Part shown: positions 26,685-47,893 of the stretch, piece after piece
How the letters are laid out: every line of letters starts with the position of its first letter
How positions within the stretch are numbered: position 1 is the stretch's first letter
Origin: Chloroflexota bacterium
GTDB taxonomy: Bacteria; Chloroflexota; UBA11872; UBA12225; JAJDUF01
Assembly (NCBI GenBank): GCA_022826725.1
Contig: JAJDUF010000004.1
Span: forward strand, 248,001 to 312,000
Length of the DNA stretch: 64,000 nt
Reading direction: 5' to 3'
Notes under the pieces: model-generated
Told to the model about the DNA's origin: nothing
The model's database searches: none
Seen by the model: only the letters and a program-made list of their open reading frames with translations
Position numbers and translations under genes: made by a program

Positions 26685-28199
26685 TTAGCGCCCCTTCCCT
26701 GGCAGGGAAGGGGCCGGGGGTGAGGTCCGCCCCCACGGTCCACCAGGCACTTTGGGCACCTCGCGGTCCGACACCGGCACCTCCGGCCAAGTATCGCCCG
26801 TCCGCTCCAGCCACGCCGCCAGCGCCGCCCGCAGCTGCTCCCGCGCCTCCGCCGCTGCCGGGTCCTCGCTGAGGTTGTGCCGCTCCAACGGGTCCGCGCG
26901 CAGGTCATAGAGTTCGTCATCGCCGCCGTCGGTCGCCACGTACTTCCAGTCCTCGGTCCGCCACGCTCGCAGCGGCGCCGGTCGCTCTCCCCAGTTGGAC
27001 GAGTGGAATTCCAGCGCAATCCCGTTATGCACCGGCTCGTCACCGCCGCGCGCCAGCGCGCCGATGTCCACACCTTGCAGCTCGCCCGGTACCGGCGCAC
27101 CGCACCAATTGAGAATAGTCGGCACCAGGTCCACGTGTGTCACCAACCGGTCCGTGCAATGCGCCGCCGCCAGCCCTCCCGGCGGGCGGATCAGCAGCGG
27201 AATGTTCATCAACTCCTCGTACAGCACCGCTCCCTTGGCCAGCAGACTGTGGCTGCCCAGCATCTCCCCATGATCGGACGTGAAGATAAACAGCGTCTCG
27301 TCAAACTGATCCGTCTCGATGAGCGCCGCCAGGATTACCCCGACGAGGTGGTCCACGTAGCTCACCGCCCCGTAGTACCCGGCCCACATCGCCCGCAGGT
27401 CGTCATCGTCAAACGGGTCGGACGGCTTCAACTGCCAGTCCGCGCGGTTTCGTAGCAGCCGCGGCCCCACGTTGTCGTGGCGCGTCTCCGGCAGCGGCAT
27501 GTCCGCCGGATCGTACATCCGGTCGAACGGGCGCGGGCTGACGAACGACGGATGCGGCTCGTGGCAGGAATACACCAGGCAGAACGGTCGTTCGTCCGTT
27601 GCCATCCCGTGAATAAATCGCGCCGCCGCCCGCGCGTCGAGCATTGATGGGTGGTAGGCCAGCGGCAACAGTGAAGGGCCGATCTTCGTCCGACGATCGA
27701 ACTGCGCCGGGTCCGCATCGTGGCCGCCCTGCTTGCCACCGATGGTGACGCCGATCCGCTCCGTAAAGCGCAATATGTCGTTTTGTTCCGGCCCGTCCAC
27801 GTCGTAGTCGCTCGCGCGCGTGACGAAGTCCCGAAAACCCCGCCGATCAGCGCCAGTGCCGAGATGCCACTTGCCGGTATAGGCGCAGGCGTAGCCCCGC
27901 GGTTGCAGGTAGTCGGCCAGCACGCGCACGTCCGGCGACAGGTGCAGCTCGTTCGAGATGGGACGCTCTTGATGGTTGGAGACCATGCCCGTCGTGTGCG
28001 GATACAACCCGGACAACAGCGACGCCCGCGCCGGCGAGCACATCGGCGTGACACAGTAGGCCCGGCGGAAAAGCGTCCCTTGCGCCGCCAGCCATTCCAG
28101 GTGCGGCGTCGAAACGTCCGCCGTCCGCACGCCCGGCATCGTATCCGCCCGCTGCTGGTCGCTGATAATCAGCACCACGTTGGGTGCGCGTTCTGCCAT
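26685..28199 (-). CDS. Type I sulfatase, copy A
   Basis: Predicted 504 residues; ATG 28199 follows aaggagagcagcg. An alkaline-phosphatase-fold sulfatase with NVVLIISDQQRADTMPG (metal Asp ~14) and the formylglycine motif Cys54-Ser-Pro-Ala-Arg58 within MCSPARASLLSGLYPH. FIFTSDHGEMLGSH gives the further metal ligands. It hydrolyses sulfate esters, probably of glycans. There is no signal peptide at this start, so it is cytoplasmic as written. The C-terminal tail (RTSPPAPSLPGKGR) is read from a repeat. Its close paralogue is at 28331-29803. No formylglycine-generating enzyme gene is in the window. Confidence 0.92.
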   Translation of the reverse strand: MAERAPNVVLIISDQQRADTMPGVRTADVSTPHLEWLAAQGTLFRRAYCVTPMCSPARASLLSGLYPHTTGMVSNHQERPISNELHLSPDVRVLADYLQPRGYACAYTGKWHLGTGADRRGFRDFVTRASDYDVDGPEQNDILRFTERIGVTIGGKQGGHDADPAQFDRRTKIGPSLLPLAYHPSMLDARAAARFIHGMATDERPFCLVYSCHEPHPSFVSPRPFDRMYDPADMPLPETRHDNVGPRLLRNRADWQLKPSDPFDDDDLRAMWAGYYGAVSYVDHLVGVILAALIETDQFDETLFIFTSDHGEMLGSHSLLAKGAVLYEELMNIPLLIRPPGGLAAAHCTDRLVTHVDLVPTILNWCGAPVPGELQGVDIGALARGGDEPVHNGIALEFHSSNWGERPAPLRAWRTEDWKYVATDGGDDELYDLRADPLERHNLSEDPAAAEAREQLRAALAAWLERTGDTWPEVPVSDREVPKVPGGPWGRTSPPAPSLPGKGR

Positions 28200-28330
28200 C
28201 GCTGCTCTCCTTCCCACCTAGCCGCCTCGACCGTCCCGCCCCATCCGTCATTGCAGCGGAAGCCGCAATCCGCGTCCCCCTGCCTAGCAGGGGGACCATT
28301 AGGGGGGCCAACTCCCGTTCCCTCCTCGCC
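28200..28330. repeat. Intergenic repeat block
   Basis: cgtcattgcagcggaagccgcaatcc at about 28246-28272 is followed by the ccccctgc..gcagggggaccattagggggg unit at about 28277-28310. It separates the two tandem sulfatase genes. Confidence 0.6.
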
Positions 28331-29803
28331 TCAGCCCCACCGACGATCTGGCCCATGGGGCAACTCACGGGCGGGCCGGGGCACTTCCGGCCAGGCATCG
28401 CCCGTCCGCTCTAGCCACGCTGCCAGTCCCGTCCGCATCCTCTCCCGCGCGCCTACCGCTGCCGGGTCCTCGCTGAGGTTGTGCCGCTCCAGCGGGTCCT
28501 CCCTCAGATCGTACAGTTCGTCGGCACCGCCGATCGTCTCCACATACTTCCAGTTCTCCGTGCGCCAGCCCCGCAAGGGCGTTGGCCGCTGGCCCCAATT
28601 GCAGGAGTGGTATTCCAGGGCGATGCCGTCGCGTACACGCTCGTTGCCACCCCTCGCGAGCGCGCCGATGTCCGCACCCTGCAACTCCCCCGGCACCGGC
28701 GCGCCGCACCAGTTGAGAATAGTCGGCACCAGGTCCACGTGCGTCACCAGCCGGCCGGTGCATTGCGCCGCCGTCAGACCTCCCGGCGGGCGGATCAGTA
28801 GCGGTATGTTGACGAGTTCTTCGTACAGCGCCGCTCCCTTGTAAAGCAATCCATGGCTGCCCAGCATCTCGCCATGATCCGACGTGAAGATGAACAGCGT
28901 CTCGTCAAACTGATCCGTTTCGATGAGCGCCGCCAGGATCACCCCTACCAGGTGGTCCACGTAGCTCACGGCCCCGTAGTACCCGGCCCACATGGCCCGC
29001 AGGTCGTCATCGTCGAGCGCGTCGGCCGACTTCAGTTGTCTGTCGTCGCGGTTCCGCAGCAGCCGCGGCCCCACATTGTCGCGGTGGGTCTCCGGCAGCG
29101 GCATGGCGGCCGGATCGTACATCCGGTCGAACGGGCGCGGGCTGACAAACTCCGGATGCGGCTCGTGGCACGAATACACCAGGCAAAACGGCCGCTTGTC
29201 GTCCGCCATCCCCTGAATGAAGCGCGCCGCTGCCCGGGCATTGAGCATTGAAGGGTGATAGGCCAGCGGCAATAGTGATGAGCCTACCCTGGTGCGAGCG
29301 CAGAAGCGCGCCGGATCGGCGTCATGGCCGGCCCGCTTTCCGCCCAGTGTGACGCCGACCCGATCAGCGAAGCGGAGAATGTCGTTCTGCTCGGGACCGT
29401 CCACGTCGTAGTCGCTGATACGGGTGATGAAGTCTCGAAAGCCCCGCCGATCACCGCCCGTTCCCAGATGCCACTTGCCGGTATAGGCGCAGGCATACCC
29501 CAACGGTTGCAGGTAATCGGCCAAGAGGCGCACATCTGGTGCTAGGTGCATTTCGTTCGAGATTGGCCGTTCCTGGTGGTTGGCAACCATGCCCGACGTG
29601 TGCGGATACAGCCCGGACAGCAGCGCAGCCCGCGCCGGCGAGCAGATCGGTGTGACACAATAGGCATTGCGGAAGAGCGTTCCCTGCGCGGCCAGCCACT
29701 CCAGGTGCGGCGTGGAAACATCGGCGGCCCGCACTCCGGGCATCGTGTCGGCGCGTTGCTCATCGCTGATGATCAGCACCACGTTCGGCCCGCTCTCAGG
29801 CAT
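28331..29803 (-). CDS. Type I sulfatase, copy B
   Basis: Predicted 490 residues; ATG 29803 lies behind gaggagggggacgaag. It is collinear with copy A from the first residues onward. The formylglycine motif is again Cys54-Ser-Pro-Ala-Arg58 (ICSPARAALLSGLYPH), with FIFTSDHGEMLGSHGLL and HVDLVPTILNWCGAPVPGE. Differences are scattered, so this is a real tandem duplication with divergence. It is probably active on a related sulfated sugar. Copies B and A and the GNAT gene form a minus-strand unit interrupted by one repeat block. Confidence 0.92.
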   Translation of the reverse strand: MPESGPNVVLIISDEQRADTMPGVRAADVSTPHLEWLAAQGTLFRNAYCVTPICSPARAALLSGLYPHTSGMVANHQERPISNEMHLAPDVRLLADYLQPLGYACAYTGKWHLGTGGDRRGFRDFITRISDYDVDGPEQNDILRFADRVGVTLGGKRAGHDADPARFCARTRVGSSLLPLAYHPSMLNARAAARFIQGMADDKRPFCLVYSCHEPHPEFVSPRPFDRMYDPAAMPLPETHRDNVGPRLLRNRDDRQLKSADALDDDDLRAMWAGYYGAVSYVDHLVGVILAALIETDQFDETLFIFTSDHGEMLGSHGLLYKGAALYEELVNIPLLIRPPGGLTAAQCTGRLVTHVDLVPTILNWCGAPVPGELQGADIGALARGGNERVRDGIALEYHSCNWGQRPTPLRGWRTENWKYVETIGGADELYDLREDPLERHNLSEDPAAVGARERMRTGLAAWLERTGDAWPEVPRPARELPHGPDRRWG

Positions 29804-29854
29804 CTTCGTCCCCCTCCTCATCCGCCCCTGCTCTATCCCTCAATTCTCGTGGTC

Positions 29855-33771: not shown

Positions 33772-33785
33772 CGTTGGCTGCGACG

Positions 33786-33884
33786 CGGAAGTACGAGGCT
33801 GGTCCGATTACGCAACCCTGGGGACCACGGGACTTCCGTACCAAAGACTGCGACGGGCACGTACCGTGCCTTGCCCAGGAGCTA
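33786..33884 (+). pseudogene. Remnant of a VOC (glyoxalase/bleomycin-resistance) protein C-terminus
   Basis: In one frame this stretch reads RKYEAGPITQPWGPRDFR, then TKDCDGHVPCLAQE. It closely follows the end of VOC-superfamily proteins, where QPWG-x-R-x-F-x-x-x-D-P-D-G-H-x-L leads the last beta-strands. No upstream domain half is present, because the aldolase gene ends 14 bases earlier, and the frame runs on without a family-like stop. It is therefore a gene fragment at the edge of the AT-richer block that begins at 33946. Confidence 0.6.
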
Positions 33885-33945
33885 GGGGGGTGTTCTACTG
33901 CGCTGATCTGGCAGATTCCGCTGGCCTCACCATTCGCCACCGAGT

Positions 33946-36426
33946 CTACTGGATGTGAAGATCGTCTCGAAGCGCTCTTCGAAGTTCGGCGACGATCTGG
34001 TCAGGTGACTGGTCGAGATGCACACTCCCTTTAGCCCCCACATCGATCCAGCCACGACCAACCACCGTACTTACTGCTGATAGTGCAGCTTCCAACCTCT
34101 CAAGACTGAGCTTGTTCAACGTCTCAGATCTCTCCCTCGCTGCAAACAAACTTGGTGGTGCTCCCGTATCGCCCTTGAGTTCATCGAGAACTTGCAGTAG
34201 GTGGGGTATCGGGACAAATTGATCGGGTTGCTCAAGATCATCTTCTAAGCCTTCAACCCAAGACTTAGTTTCATATGCTGTGTATTTCCTCTCGAACAAT
34301 TCGCGTAGCTTAACAAGCGTGATACCATGCTTAAGGTGAAGTTCGACCAATTTTCGCAGAGTGCCGGTCTGTAAGAGAGTTATTTCTTCATTCCTCGCAC
34401 TTCTATTCACTGAAGAGGAAGTATCGTCCTCACCTTGGTAAGCCTTGGCAACGACGAAGGCGTAATCTGCACGCTCATCCTCTTTGAATTGTTTGATTCG
34501 ACTGAATGGAATATCATTGGCGGCGACTCGCTCCGATGAAGTAGTCTTCGCGTCAAATACAGCACGATAATCCGCGCCCATGCTACCACGCAATCCGAGT
34601 CTGGCGTCAACGATGCCGTCATGACCGCCGGGGCGTCCACGTCTTGTGTAGCGCAAGCCCAGTGCTTCAAATGCGTAGCCGGTTGCCTTTTCCATCGCCG
34701 TTGCATCTTGATCATCAATCTCCAGCAAGCGAATAGCTTCAGTTGCGACTACAGGACCCTGCCCGGTGAGTGCCCGTAAGAGGCGATCTCGAGCCTGGAG
34801 TAGTTCGATCACCACTCTACTAGGTAGATTACAATCTCGAAGGAGCGGCTCAGACAGGACTTCCGCTTGTGCAAAGGGGGTGACTTGGGCATGGTCTGCA
34901 TTACCACCAAGTAACCGAGCAGCGAATGGATGCTCGTCATTCACAATTAGAAGACGAGCTTCTGGCTGATATTCCGCGAGTGGCGCATATGGACCCAGAG
35001 ATCGGTACTCAACTTTTTCGAATAGACCATTGTCGAAGGCAATATCCAACTTTTGTTGCCACTCGTCGCGCGAGACATCATCATCGAAAGCAGGTTTCTG
35101 AATGTAATAAAAGTCGTCGTCTTTCCCTGAAACCTGGCTTCTGACCATATCAATAAGCGGAAGTCTGATGAGGCTAGAAGGAGTGTCTTCTAGCAACCGC
35201 TCAAGATCAATGCCTTCCAGGTCCCGATCCATCTGCCTCTGATAGATACTTCGGCATTCATTGAATTTTAGGTGGAGATACTCACGTAGAAGCTCTACTG
35301 ATGCATCTTCCCGGACCCCCTCCCGAGAGGACTGTAAGTAGTCCCTGAGACCATCTGCATGCACAGTCATAGTAAAGCGTGACCATGCCGCGTGATTCAG
35401 TGCATCAAGACCAAAGAGTTCATCGGTCAGATTAATGACGCGACCACGCACCCGAATAAAGAACCCGTGGCTGCGGCCCACCTGAGAGGACTTACCTCCC
35501 GTTAGCCGCTCTCGGTAAACACGTGCATCCCCTCTTATCAATCCGATGCCGGGAATCGTGATCCCACCATTCTCAATGGATACACCTCGTTCTGCAAGAA
35601 CCTCTGCTGAGACATCTCGCGGGGCTCCGACGATTAGCGTAGCGATAGGCTCTAGACTGGCCCTAGACGATTCAACACGTTCGCCGTTGAGGTGAATTGC
35701 AAAGTCTGATGTCAATGGCAACCCGGTGCTAAACACCCATCTCAGAGTGCCAATGCGGAGTTTACCCGCAAGATCCCGGAAGTCACTCAACGCTGCGGCA
35801 GTCCATGACTCAGCAGCAGTATCACCAAACAGCATCTCCCATGCATCAGAGTCACGCTCTCGGACTTCACTAACTAGCTGTTGGGCCTGGTACTCACTAA
35901 TCCTTCGAAGATCGAGGGTGAGGGGGCTCTGTGCATCCCACTCGCGATTTTGTACTGTGCGAAAGTCCATAGATACGTAGGCGTACTGACCTGCAGTCTT
36001 GCTAATATGGGTAAGCCTCCAAGCCAGAACATATGCAGCTAGCTTTCCAATGCCGAACTGCCCTATAGGCTTTCTCCCTCGGTGAAGCGCTATATCATCT
36101 TCCACCTTCGGGGATCGAGCTACCTGCCACAGCGTATCTAAACCTTCGTTGTCCATTCCACAGCCATCGTCGATTACCCAGAGAGATGACTCAGTCGAGT
36201 TCTGTTCCTCCACTGGCAAGAGAATATGTACTCGGATGGCTCCCGCATCGTAGGAATTCGATACCAATTCCTCAATAGCCTTGTGAGGACTCTGGTACAG
36301 ACCCTCTGAGAAAAGCCGTATGATGTCAAAGTTAATCTTGACATTGATTTCTCTAGCGACCTCACCGATGCCACCAACTAGCTGACTCAGATGTGGCTGT
36401 GGGGCACCAGAGTTCTCAGCTGACAT
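33946..36426 (-). CDS. GHKL ATPase fused to a PD-(D/E)XK-like nuclease domain, copy 1 (no methyltransferase)
   Basis: Predicted 826 residues; ATG 36426 follows ggggaggcagactatgt. Residues ~30-200 form a GHKL (Hsp90/MutL/MORC) ATP-binding domain: N-box EELVSNSYD (Glu ~52, Asn ~57), DDGCGMD (~86-92) and GQFGIGKLAAY (~122-132). A middle region follows with GRSHGFFIRVRGRVI and SREGVRED, the S5-like part in such ATPases. Near the C-terminus GGHDGIVDARLG (Asp ~603) and VFDAKTT (Asp ~625, Lys ~627) form a PD-(D/E)XK-type nuclease signature, followed by a helical tail. It has the same layout and length as 41219-43720. Codon use is markedly more AT-rich than its neighbours, suggesting acquisition by transfer. 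Likely role: ATP-dependent DNA cleavage in defence. Confidence 0.8.
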   Translation of the reverse strand: MSAENSGAPQPHLSQLVGGIGEVAREINVKINFDIIRLFSEGLYQSPHKAIEELVSNSYDAGAIRVHILLPVEEQNSTESSLWVIDDGCGMDNEGLDTLWQVARSPKVEDDIALHRGRKPIGQFGIGKLAAYVLAWRLTHISKTAGQYAYVSMDFRTVQNREWDAQSPLTLDLRRISEYQAQQLVSEVRERDSDAWEMLFGDTAAESWTAAALSDFRDLAGKLRIGTLRWVFSTGLPLTSDFAIHLNGERVESSRASLEPIATLIVGAPRDVSAEVLAERGVSIENGGITIPGIGLIRGDARVYRERLTGGKSSQVGRSHGFFIRVRGRVINLTDELFGLDALNHAAWSRFTMTVHADGLRDYLQSSREGVREDASVELLREYLHLKFNECRSIYQRQMDRDLEGIDLERLLEDTPSSLIRLPLIDMVRSQVSGKDDDFYYIQKPAFDDDVSRDEWQQKLDIAFDNGLFEKVEYRSLGPYAPLAEYQPEARLLIVNDEHPFAARLLGGNADHAQVTPFAQAEVLSEPLLRDCNLPSRVVIELLQARDRLLRALTGQGPVVATEAIRLLEIDDQDATAMEKATGYAFEALGLRYTRRGRPGGHDGIVDARLGLRGSMGADYRAVFDAKTTSSERVAANDIPFSRIKQFKEDERADYAFVVAKAYQGEDDTSSSVNRSARNEEITLLQTGTLRKLVELHLKHGITLVKLRELFERKYTAYETKSWVEGLEDDLEQPDQFVPIPHLLQVLDELKGDTGAPPSLFAARERSETLNKLSLERLEAALSAVSTVVGRGWIDVGAKGSVHLDQSPDQIVAELRRALRDDLHIQ

Positions 36427-36505
36427 ACATAGTCTGCCTCCCCAGGCCATAGTACAACATCAGCGCACATAGCGCTCGTGCCGCCTCTGCTCCACTATCC
36501 ACTGA

Positions 36506-38188
36506 CTAGGCTGGGGCCGGGACGCTGCGCCGGCCGCGCAGCGGCACTTCCTTCAGGAACAGTGTGGCGACAAACGCGAGTCCGATGACGCCGGCACTGA
36601 CGAGGAACACGTCGGAGATCGCCGCCGTGAGCGCGCTCCGCACGCTGTCGAGCACCTGTTCGAGCAAGGCCGCGCCATTTGGCCCCAAGCGTGCGAACGC
36701 GGCCGCGAGGGTGGCCGTGGCGCTCGGATCAACCAGCATTTGGGGGCTTTCCTGCAGCCGACCGAGCAGCTCTGGGGGCACGGCACCGGCGACCTGCCGC
36801 GGCACGGCGTCGGCGAGGGCGGCAGCGAAACGGTTAGTCATCACCGAGCCGAGCACGGCGAGGCCGAGCGTGCCGCCGATAGAGCGATAGAACTGGGTTG
36901 CCGAGGTCGCCACGCCGACGATGCGATAGGGCACGGCGTTCTGCACGGCAATGGTGTAGCCAGGGAACGTGACGCCTAGCCCTACGCCCATCACGACGAT
37001 ATTGACTACGGCTTGCACGTAGCCGGTATCAACGGTCATGCGCGAGGCGAGCGCGATCCCGGTGCCCATGATCGCGGTCCCGATCAGCCCTTGCAGACGA
37101 TAGTGTCCGCCCAGCCGGGACAAGGTCTGACCGGAAACCGCCGCCCCGAAGACCATCCCGAGCATCATTGGGGTCAAGAAGGCGCCGCTGTTGGTGGCCG
37201 AGGCGCCGAGCACGCCTTGGAAGAACAGCGGCACAAAGATGATGCCACCGAACATCCCGAACCCGGTCAGGAAGATGGCGAGCAGCGCCAGGGTGACGGT
37301 GCGGTTGCGGTAGATCGAGAAGGGCATGATCGGCTCCGCGACCCGCCGCTCCACTATGACAAACAGGGTCCCCGCCACGAGGGCAAAGACCAGGAAACCG
37401 AGGACCTGCACCGAGAGCCACCCGTACTCCGTTGTTCCCCAGGACAGGCCGATGAGCAGCGGCACGACGGTTGCGATCAGGAGTACCATGCCCAGGTAGT
37501 CAATCTGACGTTTGCCGCTGTCACGGCCCGTATTTGGAAAGTAGATGATGAACAACACAATGATCGGAATACCCAGCGGCAGATTGATGTAGAAAATCCA
37601 GTGCCAGGAGAGGGTATCGGTCAGAAAGCCGCCGAGCGTCGGCCCGACCACGGAGGCGACGCCAAACACGGCGGCGACCAACCCCTGGTATTTTCCTCGC
37701 TCTGCCGGCGGAAACAAGTCGGCAATGGAGACGAAAGCGTTGGCAAAGATGACGCCGCCGCCTAGCCCCTGGAGGGCGCGGAAGGCGATCAGCTGGTTCA
37801 TCGTCTGGCTCAGGCCGGCGAGCACCGAGCCAAGCAGAAAGACGACCAAGCCGGCGAGATAGAAATACTTCCGGCCGTAGATGTCGGTCAGCCGGCCGAC
37901 AATGGGCACGGCCGTCGTCGAGGCCACCAGGTACGCGGTCGCAATCCACGTAAAGCGGTCGAGACCACCGAGGTCGGCGACGATGCGCGGCAAGGCTGTG
38001 CTGACTACCGTCTGGTCCAGCGCGGCGAGGAACATCCCCACCATCACCCCGGCCATCGTGAGCACGACCTGGCGGCGGGGCAGCGGGACGAACTCGTCGT
38101 CGGCGTCCACCGCCGCGCCCGCGGAGCGGGGGATGGGACCGGCCGGTGTGGACTCCGGCCGGCTGGGGGCGTCAGCGATGTTACTCAT
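36506..38188 (-). CDS. DHA2 (EmrB/QacA) family MFS drug/metabolite exporter
   Basis: Predicted 560 residues from ATG 38188 (aaaggtgaag upstream); an open frame extends to 38413. About 14 hydrophobic helices are expected. Family motifs are clear: motif A-like GRLTDIYGRKYFYLAGL, motif D1-like LDQTVVSTALPRIVADLGG, motif C-like LVAAVFGVASVVGPTLGGFL and NLPLGIPIIVLF. The N-terminal ~45 residues are a hydrophilic tail. It exports amphiphilic compounds by proton antiport. The gene is GC-rich, unlike the ATPase-nuclease gene 80 bases downstream, so it is part of the native chromosome or of a different acquisition. Confidence 0.9.
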   Translation of the reverse strand: MSNIADAPSRPESTPAGPIPRSAGAAVDADDEFVPLPRRQVVLTMAGVMVGMFLAALDQTVVSTALPRIVADLGGLDRFTWIATAYLVASTTAVPIVGRLTDIYGRKYFYLAGLVVFLLGSVLAGLSQTMNQLIAFRALQGLGGGVIFANAFVSIADLFPPAERGKYQGLVAAVFGVASVVGPTLGGFLTDTLSWHWIFYINLPLGIPIIVLFIIYFPNTGRDSGKRQIDYLGMVLLIATVVPLLIGLSWGTTEYGWLSVQVLGFLVFALVAGTLFVIVERRVAEPIMPFSIYRNRTVTLALLAIFLTGFGMFGGIIFVPLFFQGVLGASATNSGAFLTPMMLGMVFGAAVSGQTLSRLGGHYRLQGLIGTAIMGTGIALASRMTVDTGYVQAVVNIVVMGVGLGVTFPGYTIAVQNAVPYRIVGVATSATQFYRSIGGTLGLAVLGSVMTNRFAAALADAVPRQVAGAVPPELLGRLQESPQMLVDPSATATLAAAFARLGPNGAALLEQVLDSVRSALTAAISDVFLVSAGVIGLAFVATLFLKEVPLRGRRSVPAPA

Positions 38189-39685: not shown

Positions 39686-39817
39686 GGGCTATGCCTCACC
39701 CCCAGCTCGCCCGCTCCCCGGCTTCTCTTCCCTCCTGAAGCTGCAGTTGACTATGAGTGCTGGCACATGGCCGCGGCTCTCGTTCTAGGTTATACTCAAC
39801 TACCTTACTCACTTGGG

Positions 39818-39855
39818 GGGCCTGAGGCGCACTAGGGACCGCCACTGAATGACAT
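39818..39855 (+). pseudogene. Decayed 5' half of a tRNA-Ala(GGC) gene
   Basis: These 38 bases match the first 38 bases of the intact tRNA-Ala at 47696 in 32 positions: the whole acceptor 5' strand gggcctg, most of the D arm and the anticodon stem/loop 5' side (actgaatgacat). A tatact box lies 21 bases upstream, and the preceding ggccgcggc also resembles the region before the intact tRNA. No T arm or matching acceptor 3' strand follows, and the anticodon stem cannot close. The methyltransferase gene begins 18 bases later. Such relics often mark the end of inserted elements. Confidence 0.65.
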
Positions 39856-39872
39856 CGGGCTGCGAGGTGTCC

Positions 39873-41228
39873 ATGAGTTCCAAAAGGCTTCTTCATCCTG
39901 AAAGGCAGCTAGCGTACGAGAGCGGTCCTTTCGACCGCCTAACTCACTATCTCTTCAGATATCCAGCGAAATTCCATCCTCCAGTAGTCAAGACATTAAT
40001 CTCCGAATACTCACAGCGCGGTGATCGTCTCTTGGATCCGTTCTGTGGGAGCGGCTCCATGCTCGTAGAAGCTGCGGTCGCAGGGCGGCACGCGGTCGGG
40101 CTTGATCTGGACCCAGTCGCGGCGTTCGTGTCCCGCGTCAAGACTCATCTCTTCGACGTCCACCAGCTATCCGCTTCTATAAACCTACTCTCAGACCAAT
40201 TGCATCCCTTGCGGCGCCCGGATCAAGAATACCTCGACCGCTCTTTCCGCGATATTACGTTAGAGGAGTTGGAATCAACCATCGCCGATGAAGATCTCTG
40301 GATCCCCGCAATCCCCAACCTCTTTCACTGGTTTCGTAAATACGTGATACTAGACATGGCACGTGTTCATCGAGTCATCTCCGACCTTCAGATACCACCG
40401 TCCCATAAAGACTTTCTGCTGCTCTGTTTCGCTTCGATAATTCGTGCGTCATCCAATGCGGATCCGGTCCCTGTTTCAGGTCTCGAGGTCACTTCACACA
40501 TGAAGCGGAAGGAGGCGGAAGGAAGAATTATCAATCCATATGCACTGCTTGATCGCTCAATTGCTAAGGCAGTTCCTGGTGTTACTTCCTTTTCGATCAA
40601 AGCTGATCGGCAGATCACAGTATCAGTGCATCAAGGCACTGCACTCCAAGTATCCACGCATCTTCGTAGAGCTTTCGATGCTATCATTACCTCCCCTCCA
40701 TATCATAATGCCGTCGACTACTATCGTCGTCACCAACTGGAGATGTTCTGGCTAGGATTCACAAGAACGCAAGCCGATCGCCTTGCCTTGAAACAAGAGT
40801 ATCTCGGGAGACAATCGGTATCGCGCAACGATCCCATCCTAAAGCAACAGCGCCTTCTAGGCACCCTAGTCTCTGACTGGGATTCCCGGATAAGGAAAGA
40901 GTCTGACCAAAGAGCGAACTCCTTCCTCCATTACTGTCTTTCGATGAAACAAGTGTTCTTGCAATTTGAGCCACTTCTTCGAAATGGGAGTCCCGCTGTC
41001 ATCGTAATTGGGAATAGTAAGTGGAATGGCACTGAGATACCCACAGTTGAAATTCTCATGGAACTGGCCAGACCACAATTCGAAATTAGTTCCTACTTCT
41101 GGTATCCGGTCAAGAATCGCTATATGTCGTATACTAGGCGCAATGGTGCTAGCATAGACAAAGAACATGTTCTCGTTATGCGCCACACACATGCATCACG
41201 TATAGGGAATGGAAATCCATGGTCCTAG
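39873..41228 (+). CDS. Site-specific DNA methyltransferase (probable N4-cytosine or N6-adenine)
   Basis: Predicted 451 residues from ATG 39873, five bases after gaggtg-like sequence; the in-frame ATG at 39849 falls inside the tRNA relic and is less likely. AdoMet motif I is LLDPFCGSGSMLVEA (~53-67), followed by HAVGLDLDP. Catalytic motif IV is ITSPPY (TSPPY at ~273-277), then HNAVDYYRRHQLEMFWLG. The order I-IV, with ~210 residues between for target recognition, is unlike the usual beta-class order. TSPPY is most often seen in N4-cytosine enzymes. The last 10 bases overlap the ATPase-nuclease gene, so the two should be translated together. AT-richer than the flanking genes. It likely protects self DNA. 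Confidence 0.85.
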   Translation: MSSKRLLHPERQLAYESGPFDRLTHYLFRYPAKFHPPVVKTLISEYSQRGDRLLDPFCGSGSMLVEAAVAGRHAVGLDLDPVAAFVSRVKTHLFDVHQLSASINLLSDQLHPLRRPDQEYLDRSFRDITLEELESTIADEDLWIPAIPNLFHWFRKYVILDMARVHRVISDLQIPPSHKDFLLLCFASIIRASSNADPVPVSGLEVTSHMKRKEAEGRIINPYALLDRSIAKAVPGVTSFSIKADRQITVSVHQGTALQVSTHLRRAFDAIITSPPYHNAVDYYRRHQLEMFWLGFTRTQADRLALKQEYLGRQSVSRNDPILKQQRLLGTLVSDWDSRIRKESDQRANSFLHYCLSMKQVFLQFEPLLRNGSPAVIVIGNSKWNGTEIPTVEILMELARPQFEISSYFWYPVKNRYMSYTRRNGASIDKEHVLVMRHTHASRIGNGNPWS

Positions 41229-43720
41229 AGAACCAGACCTTCTCGGATTCCCTGGCCTTGCTAGGCGAGGACACAGGCAACCCCATTACGGTTAGGCTGT
41301 CTAACGAAATCGTGACGTTGCTGTCATCACAACTGTACCAGTCACCCCTTAAGGCAATTGAAGAACTCGTAGTGAACTCGTATGACGCAAATGCCAAGCA
41401 GTGTAGGTTATTTGTCACTGATCCCAGCAGCGATCTACAGGCCATACTAGTATACGACGACGGCATCGGTATGGACACCGACGGCCTCTCGGATCTCTGG
41501 CTGGTTGCGCGGAGCAAGAAGAGGGAGGCAGCCTATCAGCGTCGCATTCAACGCAAGCAAATTGGTAAGTTCGGAATCGGCAAGCTTGCCACGTATGCAG
41601 TCGCCAATCTGGTGACCTACGTTTCCCGCGCAGGCGACGATATCCTCGCAGTCAGCACAGATTTTCGCCAATTCCAAGAGGACTCTCAGGGCTCCTCACC
41701 CATTAGCCTGCCAGTTACTAGGATTAGCTCATTCGATAGTCTCAAGAAGTCCGAAGTATTCTGCTCTTCCTGCAAAGCTGCAGGCGTCGCCGTTGACTCG
41801 CTGATGGACCGTAATCACAAGTCCTGGACAATTGTTCTCTTGGAGAGTATGAAACCTCGAACCATTCACGTCGGAAGGCTGCGATGGGTACTCAGAACAG
41901 CAATGCCTCTACAGCCAGAATTCCGCCTTTTTCTTAATCGACGTGAAGTCCTTAGTTCGAAGGAGAACGCTAGTATCCTTGTCCAATTTGGTGTCGCTGA
42001 GTTGCCATCCAAGCGGCTAGATTCCGTCAATGACAAGACTCAAGAAGACTGGCGTCCTCACGGTGGCTCCTTAAAGTCATCATCATTCCCTGAAGGAGTG
42101 CAGGGTACAGTCATAGTCACCAGAGAGTCACTGCACGTTGGGAAAAGCATGGACCTCGGTCGCAGTCACGGCTTCTTCGTTAAGGTACGACGCAGATTGA
42201 TTAATGCAGAGGATCCACTGTTCGGACTATCTCCACTTTCCTACCAAACCTTCAACCGTTTCCGAGCCGATGTAACGGTTGATGAACTCGATGAAGCGAT
42301 AACAGCACCGAGGGAAGGAATAGGAGAATCCTCTCTAAAGGACAAATTACTTCCCCTACTAGAAGAACTATTCTACGAAGCTAGGGAAAGATATGAAAAA
42401 CAAATTAGAGATGGTGATGAACAAATCAAGAGAAAGAAGGAGGATGAGCGCACTTACGTTCCCACCCGGATGCTTGAGCATCCGATTGCCGACGTGCTAT
42501 CTGCTCCATCCTCCGGCCCTCAACAAGGTGCTGAGGGGGACGAGAGTTGGTTTTATCTTGATGTTAAAGAAGATCAGGAGATCACTTCCTTAGTGCAATC
42601 ACTATACTCACAGAATCGAAGAAAACGATATACTTTTAGCTATACCAGAAGGGGAAAGTCGGCTCGTTTAGTTCAATTCGATCCGGAGCAATCTGCCTTC
42701 TACCTAAACGCGGATCATGATCTTGTGCTTGAATATCATGGAGACTCAAGGTCCCGGGCTCTCTTAGAGGACGTGGCTACCGCTGAAGCGGTATTGGAAG
42801 TTTACCTTAGGGAACATGGTGTGCCTCCACACGTCGTGGGACAGGTGCTTGAAAAAAGAGACTCCCTACTGCGAGGTCTAGCTAACGAGCGCCTATTCTC
42901 TCTCGCTGCCATCAGTGAGTCACTAAAGGATAGCGCAAGCGATGAACATGATCTCGAGGTTGCTCTCGTTGCTGCAAGTCGAGCACTCGGCTTTGTCACC
43001 AAGCACGTCGGCGGTGCCGGTGAACCTGACGGAATTGGGAGATTTACAGATCACCCTGATGGTGAGCAAAAGATCACATTGGAAGCTAAGTCATCTGGAG
43101 GGATACCATCACTCGCGCATCTAGACTTCGCCGGCCTCCACGAGCATGTGACTAAACATGAAGCTGCCGGTTGTCTGCTCTTGGCCCCCAGGTATCCTGG
43201 TGTTCCCTCGGGCGAGAATTCGGCTGTTTCTCGTCGAGCCAAGGAAACCCGAGTCTCCTGTTGGACAGTGGATCAACTCGCACGAGTTGTGGCCGCAGCG
43301 GAAAGTCGCCACATTGGGGCCCAGCAAGTTCTGGATGTGGTACTCAAGCAGTTTGCTCCGGCCGATGTATCAACTGCGGTCGAGAAGCTGCTAGGTGAGC
43401 CGCGTTGGGAGCAACCCTCTCTATATTCAGCAATCCTACAGGCCCTTAAGCGGTTGGAGAATCGCCTACGAGACCAACCACGAACCGTTCTTCTTATAGC
43501 TGCGGAAGTCTCCGGGCAGCCGAATTTCGCCAACATTCTCGGACGTGAAATCAAAGATGCTCTTGCTAACTTGGCTGCGGCCAGTCAAGGAGCGTTACTA
43601 CTTAGGGACGACCGTGTCATTGTCAATACTTCGCTCGAAGAACTCGACCGAAGGCTAGTAGGAATGACCGGGGATGGAGCCGAACCTCGCAGAGGAGGAA
43701 CACTCCGAAGCACACCATAG
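41219..43720 (+). CDS. GHKL ATPase fused to a PD-(D/E)XK-like nuclease domain, copy 2 (methyltransferase-linked)
   Basis: Predicted 833 residues; ATG 41219 overlaps the methyltransferase stop. GHKL ATPase domain: YQSPLKAIEELVVNSYDANA (N-box Glu ~48, Asn ~53), DDGIGMD (~80-86), GKFGIGKLATY (~116-126). Middle part: GRSHGFFVKVRRRLINAEDPLFGL and APREGIGESS, collinear with copy 1. A charged coiled-coil-like stretch (EQIKRKKEDER, ~400-415) follows. EPDGIGRF (Asp ~604) and ITLEAKSSGG (Glu ~622, Lys ~624) make the nuclease signature, almost at the same residue number as in copy 1. The C-terminal ~130 residues may be a partner- or DNA-binding domain. Related GHKL ATPases occur in restriction-modification operons. 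The sequence is more AT-rich than the host background. Confidence 0.82.
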   Translation: MVLENQTFSDSLALLGEDTGNPITVRLSNEIVTLLSSQLYQSPLKAIEELVVNSYDANAKQCRLFVTDPSSDLQAILVYDDGIGMDTDGLSDLWLVARSKKREAAYQRRIQRKQIGKFGIGKLATYAVANLVTYVSRAGDDILAVSTDFRQFQEDSQGSSPISLPVTRISSFDSLKKSEVFCSSCKAAGVAVDSLMDRNHKSWTIVLLESMKPRTIHVGRLRWVLRTAMPLQPEFRLFLNRREVLSSKENASILVQFGVAELPSKRLDSVNDKTQEDWRPHGGSLKSSSFPEGVQGTVIVTRESLHVGKSMDLGRSHGFFVKVRRRLINAEDPLFGLSPLSYQTFNRFRADVTVDELDEAITAPREGIGESSLKDKLLPLLEELFYEARERYEKQIRDGDEQIKRKKEDERTYVPTRMLEHPIADVLSAPSSGPQQGAEGDESWFYLDVKEDQEITSLVQSLYSQNRRKRYTFSYTRRGKSARLVQFDPEQSAFYLNADHDLVLEYHGDSRSRALLEDVATAEAVLEVYLREHGVPPHVVGQVLEKRDSLLRGLANERLFSLAAISESLKDSASDEHDLEVALVAASRALGFVTKHVGGAGEPDGIGRFTDHPDGEQKITLEAKSSGGIPSLAHLDFAGLHEHVTKHEAAGCLLLAPRYPGVPSGENSAVSRRAKETRVSCWTVDQLARVVAAAESRHIGAQQVLDVVLKQFAPADVSTAVEKLLGEPRWEQPSLYSAILQALKRLENRLRDQPRTVLLIAAEVSGQPNFANILGREIKDALANLAAASQGALLLRDDRVIVNTSLEELDRRLVGMTGDGAEPRRGGTLRSTP

Positions 43721-43777
43721 CGCCTGCCGCAGTCAGATGACGCGCTCCGTCAGCAGGCCACGCCTCGCCCGCCGCCC

Positions 43778-44692
43778 CTACGCCTCTACCGGCGGCGGGA
43801 GGTATTGCTTGGGGACTTTGGCGATGTAGGAGAAGGTCGGGTTGACGAACGCCGTCACGCGGGCTTCGAGCACCTGGCCGAGGAACAGATACGCTTCGCC
43901 ACGGTCGAACCCGTAGCCCTCTTCCAGCCACAAGATCATCGCTTCCAGCGCAGCACGGAAGGCGTCCTCGGCCGGGCGGGCACAGGCGACGGTCATGATG
44001 TGGGTCGCATTCTCCAGCCGCGGCCCGGACATAGTTGCCGGCTGGGGGCCAAGCTCGCAGCGGAGGCGCACGAGAGCACTCGACTCGATTCCCCCGGCGC
44101 CGCAGATTTCGCCATCGCCCTGCCGCGCGTGCATGTCGCCGATGTGGAGTAGCGCCCCCGGCACATATACGGGCAGTTGCACGGTGCAGCCGGTCGTGAC
44201 CTCTTGCACGTCCATGTTGCCGCCCCAGTAGCCGGCCCAGCTGTGCGTGTAGCGCTCATACTCCGGGGCCACACCGACAAAGCCGAGCATCGGCGCGGTC
44301 GGGAAGCGCAGCCCATCGCACCACTCGATGAACCCGTCCTCGATCCGCACGATCTTGGCGTGCTCGCCGATGCCGCTGCCACCCAGCCACGCCGGCATCG
44401 CGCCGTTGGCGCCGCGGAAGCGGGTGAAGCCGATGGGGTCAATGTCGAACTCGCCGATGTGGACGGAGAGCATGTCGCCAGGCTGCGCCCCCTCGACATA
44501 AATGCACCCGCTCGACGGATTGCCCCCGCGCAGCCGGCGGCGCAAGGCCTCGCCGTCGGGATGGTCGTCGAGCCACGGCCCGCCGTTCATTTGGGTTTGC
44601 ACCTCGAACTCTTCGCCCGGTTGCACCCGCATCGTTGGCGCGTTCTCCGCCCCGATCTCGAAGTAGAGCACGTCGGTCGTCGCACGTTGCAT
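43778..44692 (-). CDS. Acetamidase/formamidase family protein
   Basis: Predicted 304 residues, the family's typical length. LYFEIGAENAPTMRVQPGEEF starts the beta-rich fold. NPSSGCIYVEGAQPGDMLSVHI, LHIGDMHARQGDGEICGAGGIE (metal/catalytic region with His, Asp, Glu and Cys) and THIMTVACARPAEDAFRAAL match FmdA/AmdA amidases. It hydrolyses short-chain amides (formamide, acetamide) to ammonium and carboxylate. GC content returns to the background here, 57 bases after the AT-richer ATPase-nuclease gene. The downstream HAD gene on the same strand starts 850 bases away and is separate. Confidence 0.92.
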   Translation of the reverse strand: MQRATTDVLYFEIGAENAPTMRVQPGEEFEVQTQMNGGPWLDDHPDGEALRRRLRGGNPSSGCIYVEGAQPGDMLSVHIGEFDIDPIGFTRFRGANGAMPAWLGGSGIGEHAKIVRIEDGFIEWCDGLRFPTAPMLGFVGVAPEYERYTHSWAGYWGGNMDVQEVTTGCTVQLPVYVPGALLHIGDMHARQGDGEICGAGGIESSALVRLRCELGPQPATMSGPRLENATHIMTVACARPAEDAFRAALEAMILWLEEGYGFDRGEAYLFLGQVLEARVTAFVNPTFSYIAKVPKQYLPPPVEA

Positions 44693-47695: not shown

Positions 47696-47768
47696 GGGCC
47701 TGTGGCGCAGTTGGGAGCGCGACTGAATGGCATTCAGTAGGTCGGGGGTTCGAATCCCCCCAGGTCCA
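47696..47768 (+). tRNA. tRNA-Ala (anticodon GGC)
   Basis: The 73 bases fold into a full cloverleaf: acceptor gggcctg/caggtcc with the G3-U70 wobble that defines alanine tRNAs, D stem gcgc/gcgc, anticodon stem actga/tcagt with loop atggcat (anticodon GGC at 47724+5 to +7), T stem ggggg/ccccc with loop ttcgaat, and discriminator A at 47768. The CCA end is not fully encoded. A tatact -10-like box at 47679-47684 lies 11 bases upstream. A degraded half copy is at 39818-39855. Confidence 0.95.
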
Positions 47769-47893
47769 CCTAACTGGACAAACTCCAGAACCCTCACCTT
47801 GAGGTTCGCTCTGGAGTTGTAACTCGGCCCGCGCTCTAGGCCCAGTATGGCCAACCCATCCGAAGACCTCAGCCGCCTGGTCGAGCCACCAAG

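Follow-up and report, generated by a model that had tools for sequence, protein, structure and literature searches.

The window analysed here is a stretch of 64,000 nucleotides from a draft genome of a Chloroflexota bacterium (GenBank assembly GCA_022826725.1, contig JAJDUF010000004.1, positions 248,001 to 312,000). On its forward strand, a DNA methyltransferase gene (39849-41228) is followed by the gene of a fused ATPase and predicted nuclease, which we call G1 (41219-43720), and we examined the pair as a candidate restriction-modification system. An initial annotation of this DNA had described an overlap of 10 bases between the methyltransferase gene and the gene of the 833-residue protein, which the coordinates of the open reading frames (ORFs) bear out. 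Its methyltransferase start at 39873 belongs to the same ORF but is the second methionine of a frame that runs from 39849. The features of the pair are as follows:

39849..41228, forward: predicted N4/N6-type DNA methyltransferase (PF01555), 459 amino acids (ORF, Pfam)
40035..40055, forward: methyltransferase motif I DPFCGSG (S-adenosylmethionine binding), residues 63-69
40689..40703, forward: methyltransferase motif IV TSPPY (catalytic), residues 281-285
41219..43720, forward: G1, fusion of a GHKL ATPase and a predicted FokI-type nuclease, 833 amino acids, first 10 bases inside the methyltransferase gene
41276..41953, forward: GHKL ATP-binding domain of G1, about residues 20-245
41954..42430, forward: S5/transducer-like domain and long helix of G1, about residues 246-404
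42899..43381, forward: predicted FokI/HindIII-type PD-(D/E)XK nuclease domain of G1, residues 561-721, with E580, P603-D604 and E622-x-K624
43409..43684, forward: predicted winged-helix domain of G1, residues 731-822
39719..43786, no strand: cassette of methyltransferase and G1, missing in genome G287 of the same genus, where 106 bases stand instead (BLAST boundaries)

The methyltransferase matches the Pfam family N6_N4_Mtase (PF01555) with an E value of 4e-14, in agreement with the DPFCGSG and TSPPY motifs read in it earlier, which start at residues 63 and 281. From these features, it is predicted to be an N4/N6-type enzyme forming N4-methylcytosine (m4C) or N6-methyladenine (m6A); the TSPPY form of motif IV is typical above all of m4C enzymes. 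The two genes are, as had been stated, richer in AT than their surroundings: their GC content is 0.50-0.51 versus 0.642 for the window, and their GC content at third codon positions is 0.49-0.52 versus 0.79 and 0.81 in two genes nearby.

G1 matches the Pfam family HATPase_c_3 (E 3e-18). The complete GHKL ATP-binding site attributed to it (Glu48, Asn53 and further residues) was confirmed in an alignment of 25 sequences, with homologues 48-67% identical to G1, where E48, N53, D80, G82, G84, G116, G121 and K122 are invariant. The C-terminal half, searched as a single sequence, matched no Pfam family at E 0.1. In the structure model, the C-terminal part is a PD-(D/E)XK nuclease with a predicted local distance difference test score (pLDDT) of 91.5 and with FokI and HindIII as top matches, which answers the fold check proposed with the initial annotation, and sequence searches with the nuclease domains lend weak support to a FokI-type fold. 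On the strength of the model, we predict that this domain has the fold of the FokI cleavage domain and that a winged helix probably lies C-terminal to it.

The D..E-x-K motif noticed initially is well conserved. E580, P603, D604, G605, E622 and K624 are invariant in the 25-sequence alignment, and E580, D604, E622 and K624 are each found in 120 of 121 sequences, with a gap in the remaining one. Across 72 rows, covering both deep clades of the family and the paralogue G2 described below (10 of 80 loci, short or split, were omitted), position 624 is always K and position 622 always E or D, while position 604 is D in 67 rows and E in 5, and position 580 is E in 70 and Q in 2. PADLOC REase_II models match G1 with 46 and 28 bits in the ATPase part only, and 3 of 40 nuclease domains match another REase_II model (best E 4e-4). 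Among the matches listed, relatives of G1 are named just 'hypothetical protein', 'ATP-binding protein' or 'HSP90-like ATPase'.

Linkage to a methyltransferase across relatives

Relatives were collected by scanning a single genome for each species, and the best 80 of 117 were analysed; the family occurs in bacteria and in archaeal metagenome-assembled genomes (L039, L042 and L052). A methyltransferase lies within 1.5 kb in 70 of the 80 loci by script and in 71 after hand correction, which removed L018 (its match is an HsdM-like gene adjoining HsdS) and added L064 (split gene) and L080 (C5 methyltransferase). In 56 loci the script places it at a distance of 50 bases or less. The background rate, taken from genes four or more places away, is 7 of 447, so that homologues do occur mostly with a methyltransferase, a point the initial annotation had put forward for checking. 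Among the loci lacking one, L017, L051 and L077 stop at or near a contig end, L009 and L055 adjoin a transposase, and L014, L018, L031 and L062 are left with no explanation.

The link persists when the loci are clustered by identity, being kept in 64 of 74 clusters at 90%, 50 of 58 at 70%, 39 of 45 at 60% and 21 of 25 at 50% (labels as given by the script, not yet corrected by hand). On a quick 77-row tree of the nucleases, again with script labels and with the 5 of 80 loci omitted whose nuclease rows are shorter than 640 amino acids, the methyltransferase switches side or strand 14 times, and there are 9 changes between its presence and absence. Metagenomes provide indirect support: 119 nuclease hits and 120 methyltransferase hits have 26 contig sizes in common, with 0.5 expected by jittering (one of the 120 nuclease hits came without a contig size).

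In Flavobacterium sp. WG47, the pair of methyltransferase and GHKL genes is followed by the gene of a 741-amino-acid protein (L037:10450-12675) with an N-terminal HATPase_c_3 and a C-terminal HATPase_c domain, which resembles the HEF_HK kinases in the accessible part of PMC8011034.

A second copy and a probable exchange of partners

The window contains a second, intact copy of the family, G2, which the initial annotation overlooked together with the probable winged helix of G1:

33946..36450, reverse: orphan GHKL/nuclease paralogue G2, 834 amino acids, with the ATP-site and E-HDG-DxK motifs present
33777..36509, no strand: cassette holding G2 only, missing in G287, which has 16 bases instead (BLAST boundaries)

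G2 is 29% identical to G1 over 750 columns, and the two are the only copies of the family in the whole draft genome in a search at E 1e-3. No methyltransferase adjoins G2; its nearest genomic relative (44% identical, in genome G221) has one directly after the gene. On the nuclease tree G2 sits on a long branch and its placement is unsure. Its flanking genes, named by eye, are threonine-aldolase-like and MFS-transporter-like. The genome also holds solitary methyltransferases related to that of the window, at L114:6705-7979 (contig C19) and L115:6966-8441 (contig C6). Because the enzyme on C19 has a 94% identical copy in a congener without the cassettes, and is 33% identical to the methyltransferase beside the nearest genomic relative of G2, it is present independently of G2.

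Partners have probably been exchanged between nucleases of the family. By script, 65 of the 80 loci have partners of one N4/N6 family and four have partners of a second; the partner in L080 is a C5 enzyme, a type looked for among ten neighbour proteins only. The methyltransferases of Kribbella (L028) and Herbidospora (L005) are 60% identical, and their nucleases belong to different deep clades. An approximately unbiased (AU) test rejects the grouping of all partners of G1-type nucleases in a single clade (p 0.0039, 6 rows versus 45). The tree behind it is a quick one with 51 methyltransferases and long branches, in which L011 is not a row, and the group was picked after the scores had been seen. 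The window's methyltransferase type occurs with nucleases of both deep clades and could therefore also shield the host from G2. Co-variation between methyltransferase and nuclease domain, computed on 41 non-redundant of 49 pairs, amounts to a partial r of 0.12-0.13 (reached by 9 and 7 of 1000 permutations), too weak for placing specificity, and none was found between the methyltransferase and the transducer, middle or winged-helix segments.

The pair might be a remnant of a mobile island that is now functionless. The assembly is a draft whose contamination is estimated at 5.34%, and G2 has lost, or never had, its partner. We nevertheless find a fossil pair highly improbable, as both frames of the pair are open over their full length, all catalytic residues are present, and full-length homologues reach 67% identity. 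No convincing target-site duplications were found at the cassette ends. A viral or plasmid origin was considered and rejected: viral contigs gave two weak N-terminal relatives among five candidate stretches (single-protein query, reaching close relatives only), G1 as query matched 1 of 50,697 phage records, and of 72,556 plasmid records G1 matched 1 and G2 matched 1, over the N-terminal part only.

Relation to known systems

Proteins joining a GHKL part to a nuclease were predicted in 2008 under the name paraMORC3 (Iyer, Abhiman, Aravind 2008, PMC2292703): GHKL-S5 proteins whose C-terminal domain has a restriction fold and E-D-ExK, some of them in restriction neighbourhoods and some alone. The window family shares the GHKL motifs, the conserved basic residue of the S5 domain (K309 in the transducer of G1, present in 121 of 121 sequences) and, at the C-terminus, the restriction fold with E-D-ExK. 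The published account of paraMORC3 has helicases, methylases and Vsr as neighbours, nuclease matches of the RecB-like kind and standalone genes; the window family, compared with it by description, usually consists of the methyltransferase and the fusion, whose predicted nuclease is of FokI/Mrr type and is followed by a probable winged helix.

A second precedent is the restriction family BbrUII/HgiDII, a GHKL-containing family named by NCBIfam NF050001. Its GHKL-S5 head aligns locally with that of G1 (profile columns 22-406, hhalign probability 99.7), and a C-terminal D..ExK is common to both. G1 itself scores 61.4 bits over residues 31-157 only, compared with a curated cut-off of 550. We retrieved 11 loci with the NF050001 model, 4 of them over the cut-off. 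The BbrUII/HgiDII proteins measure about 550-680 amino acids, and in those that exceed the cut-off the C-terminal nuclease is a different one, with weak sub-threshold similarity to SduA_C in 2 of 4. A 5-methylcytosine (m5C) methyltransferase adjoins the gene in 8 of the 11 loci and lies one gene off in L136; in L127 and L134 none was seen (all by eye). For M.HgiDII, m5C activity on GTCGAC is reported (PMC5867850), while the partner in the window is an N6_N4_Mtase of PF01555.

VcSduA, a GHKL-Shedu protein composed of GHKL and DUF4263, protects against phage, and its ATPase and nuclease mutants lose anti-phage activity (PMC12137116); its architecture falls under the paraMORC3 label. Like VcSduA, G1 is a GHKL ATPase fused to a PD-(D/E)XK nuclease; unlike VcSduA, which has a DUF4263/SduA_C domain and is described as a single protein, the window family is usually found near a methyltransferase. 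SduA_C gave no match in G1 at E 0.1 nor in 40 nuclease domains at E 1, which covers the reach of hidden Markov models and leaves room for a remoter relation; Shedu chains are missing among the 50 matches listed by VIA, which excludes nothing.

The pair might be a sensing module, in which a phage cue activates the nuclease, as has been put forward for Shedu-type proteins, with the methyltransferase exempting self DNA or serving as an antitoxin-like regulator. VcSduA, which is described without a methyltransferase, favours this view, as do the family members that lack one, G2 among them. Against it, the methyltransferase is kept in 71 of 80 loci despite changes of side, strand and enzyme family, and such retention is a need of self/non-self marking; we give the sensing module a small chance.

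FokI, a type IIS enzyme, has recognition domains of its own; G1 has in their place the ATPase clamp, the middle domain and a single probable winged helix. In its GHKL plus transducer architecture G1 is like MORC2, SMCHD1 and MutL, none of which, to our knowledge, has a FokI-type nuclease. It differs from MORC proper, whose S5-domain motif is GhXhhpXXRhl (PMC2292703): the nearest stretch, GFFVKVRRRLI at residues 318-328, is off at two defined positions (by eye). Another reading is a MutL-like role in repair or strand discrimination, with methylation marking the parental strand. Iyer et al. suggest a comparable role for versions outside restriction contexts (PMC2292703), and the match of the GHKL and transducer part to MORC2/SMCHD1 and weak matches to NCBIfam MutL models point the same way. 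We regard this role as very unlikely for the pair.

The kind is thus known, and the window pair is a distinct variant of it, with a FokI/Mrr-type nuclease, a probable winged helix and an N4/N6 methyltransferase. The literature searched, whose coverage leaves many subscription papers outside, yielded neither a paper on a pair of GHKL-FokI fusion and methyltransferase nor a name for this variant. The earlier view that the unit is not a standard named system holds only in part, since paraMORC3, VcSduA and BbrUII/HgiDII had already been described.

Proposed mechanism

The methyltransferase and G1 are probably a two-gene restriction-modification system. As a type II system requires, the methyltransferase and nuclease are encoded together (10-base overlap; 71 of 80 loci) and the nuclease has an intact catalytic motif, judging by the model and by each residue in 120 of 121 sequences. 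The suggestion of a likely restriction or anti-phage module has thus gained support from the nuclease model and the methyltransferase linkage; for gating, cleavage and defence by the pair we propose the following. The methyltransferase would mark host DNA, and G1 would act as an ATP-operated GHKL clamp equipped with a nuclease of FokI type and, for DNA binding, a winged-helix domain. An ATP-driven dimer of GHKL heads is known for MutL and MORC proteins, and FokI cuts as a dimer. In G1, ATP binding might likewise dimerise the heads around DNA and put two FokI-type cleavage domains onto one DNA; the clamp would be a natural gate, because the head dimer would join two domains of a type that cuts as a dimer. 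The winged helix, together with the middle domain, may read the site. Site methylation would block cutting, the ATP-driven clamp controlling cleavage of unmethylated foreign DNA. G2 would be a second nuclease, tolerated as its site may be covered by an existing methyltransferase, either the one encoded beside G1 or an orphan enzyme resident in the cell.

More tentatively, and with considerable doubt, the family could form a widespread ATP-dependent class of two-gene restriction systems, in which a MORC/MutL-type clamp licenses FokI-type pairing, at least three families of methyltransferase can replace one another, and one methyltransferase shields the host from two divergent clamp-nucleases. 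If so, the orphan G2, 3.4 kb away from the pair, would mean that a nuclease cassette can spread on its own to any host that already bears a compatible mark.

If the restriction reading of the pair is right, the GHKL clamp would stand in for the recognition part of a FokI-type enzyme and govern when two cleavage domains come together. The pair would then be a simple, testable model of how MORC/MutL clamps answer to methylated DNA, which is still debated for the MORC and SMCHD1 proteins of eukaryotes. A family of proteins with only generic names would gain a function and could yield new methylation-coupled nucleases.

Elsewhere in the window, a lone tRNA-Ala (ggc) gene lies on the forward strand at 47696-47770, about 4 kb downstream of the pair, and two neighbouring, highly similar sulfatase-like genes on the reverse strand (26685-28217 and 28331-29821) appear by eye to be tandem duplicates.
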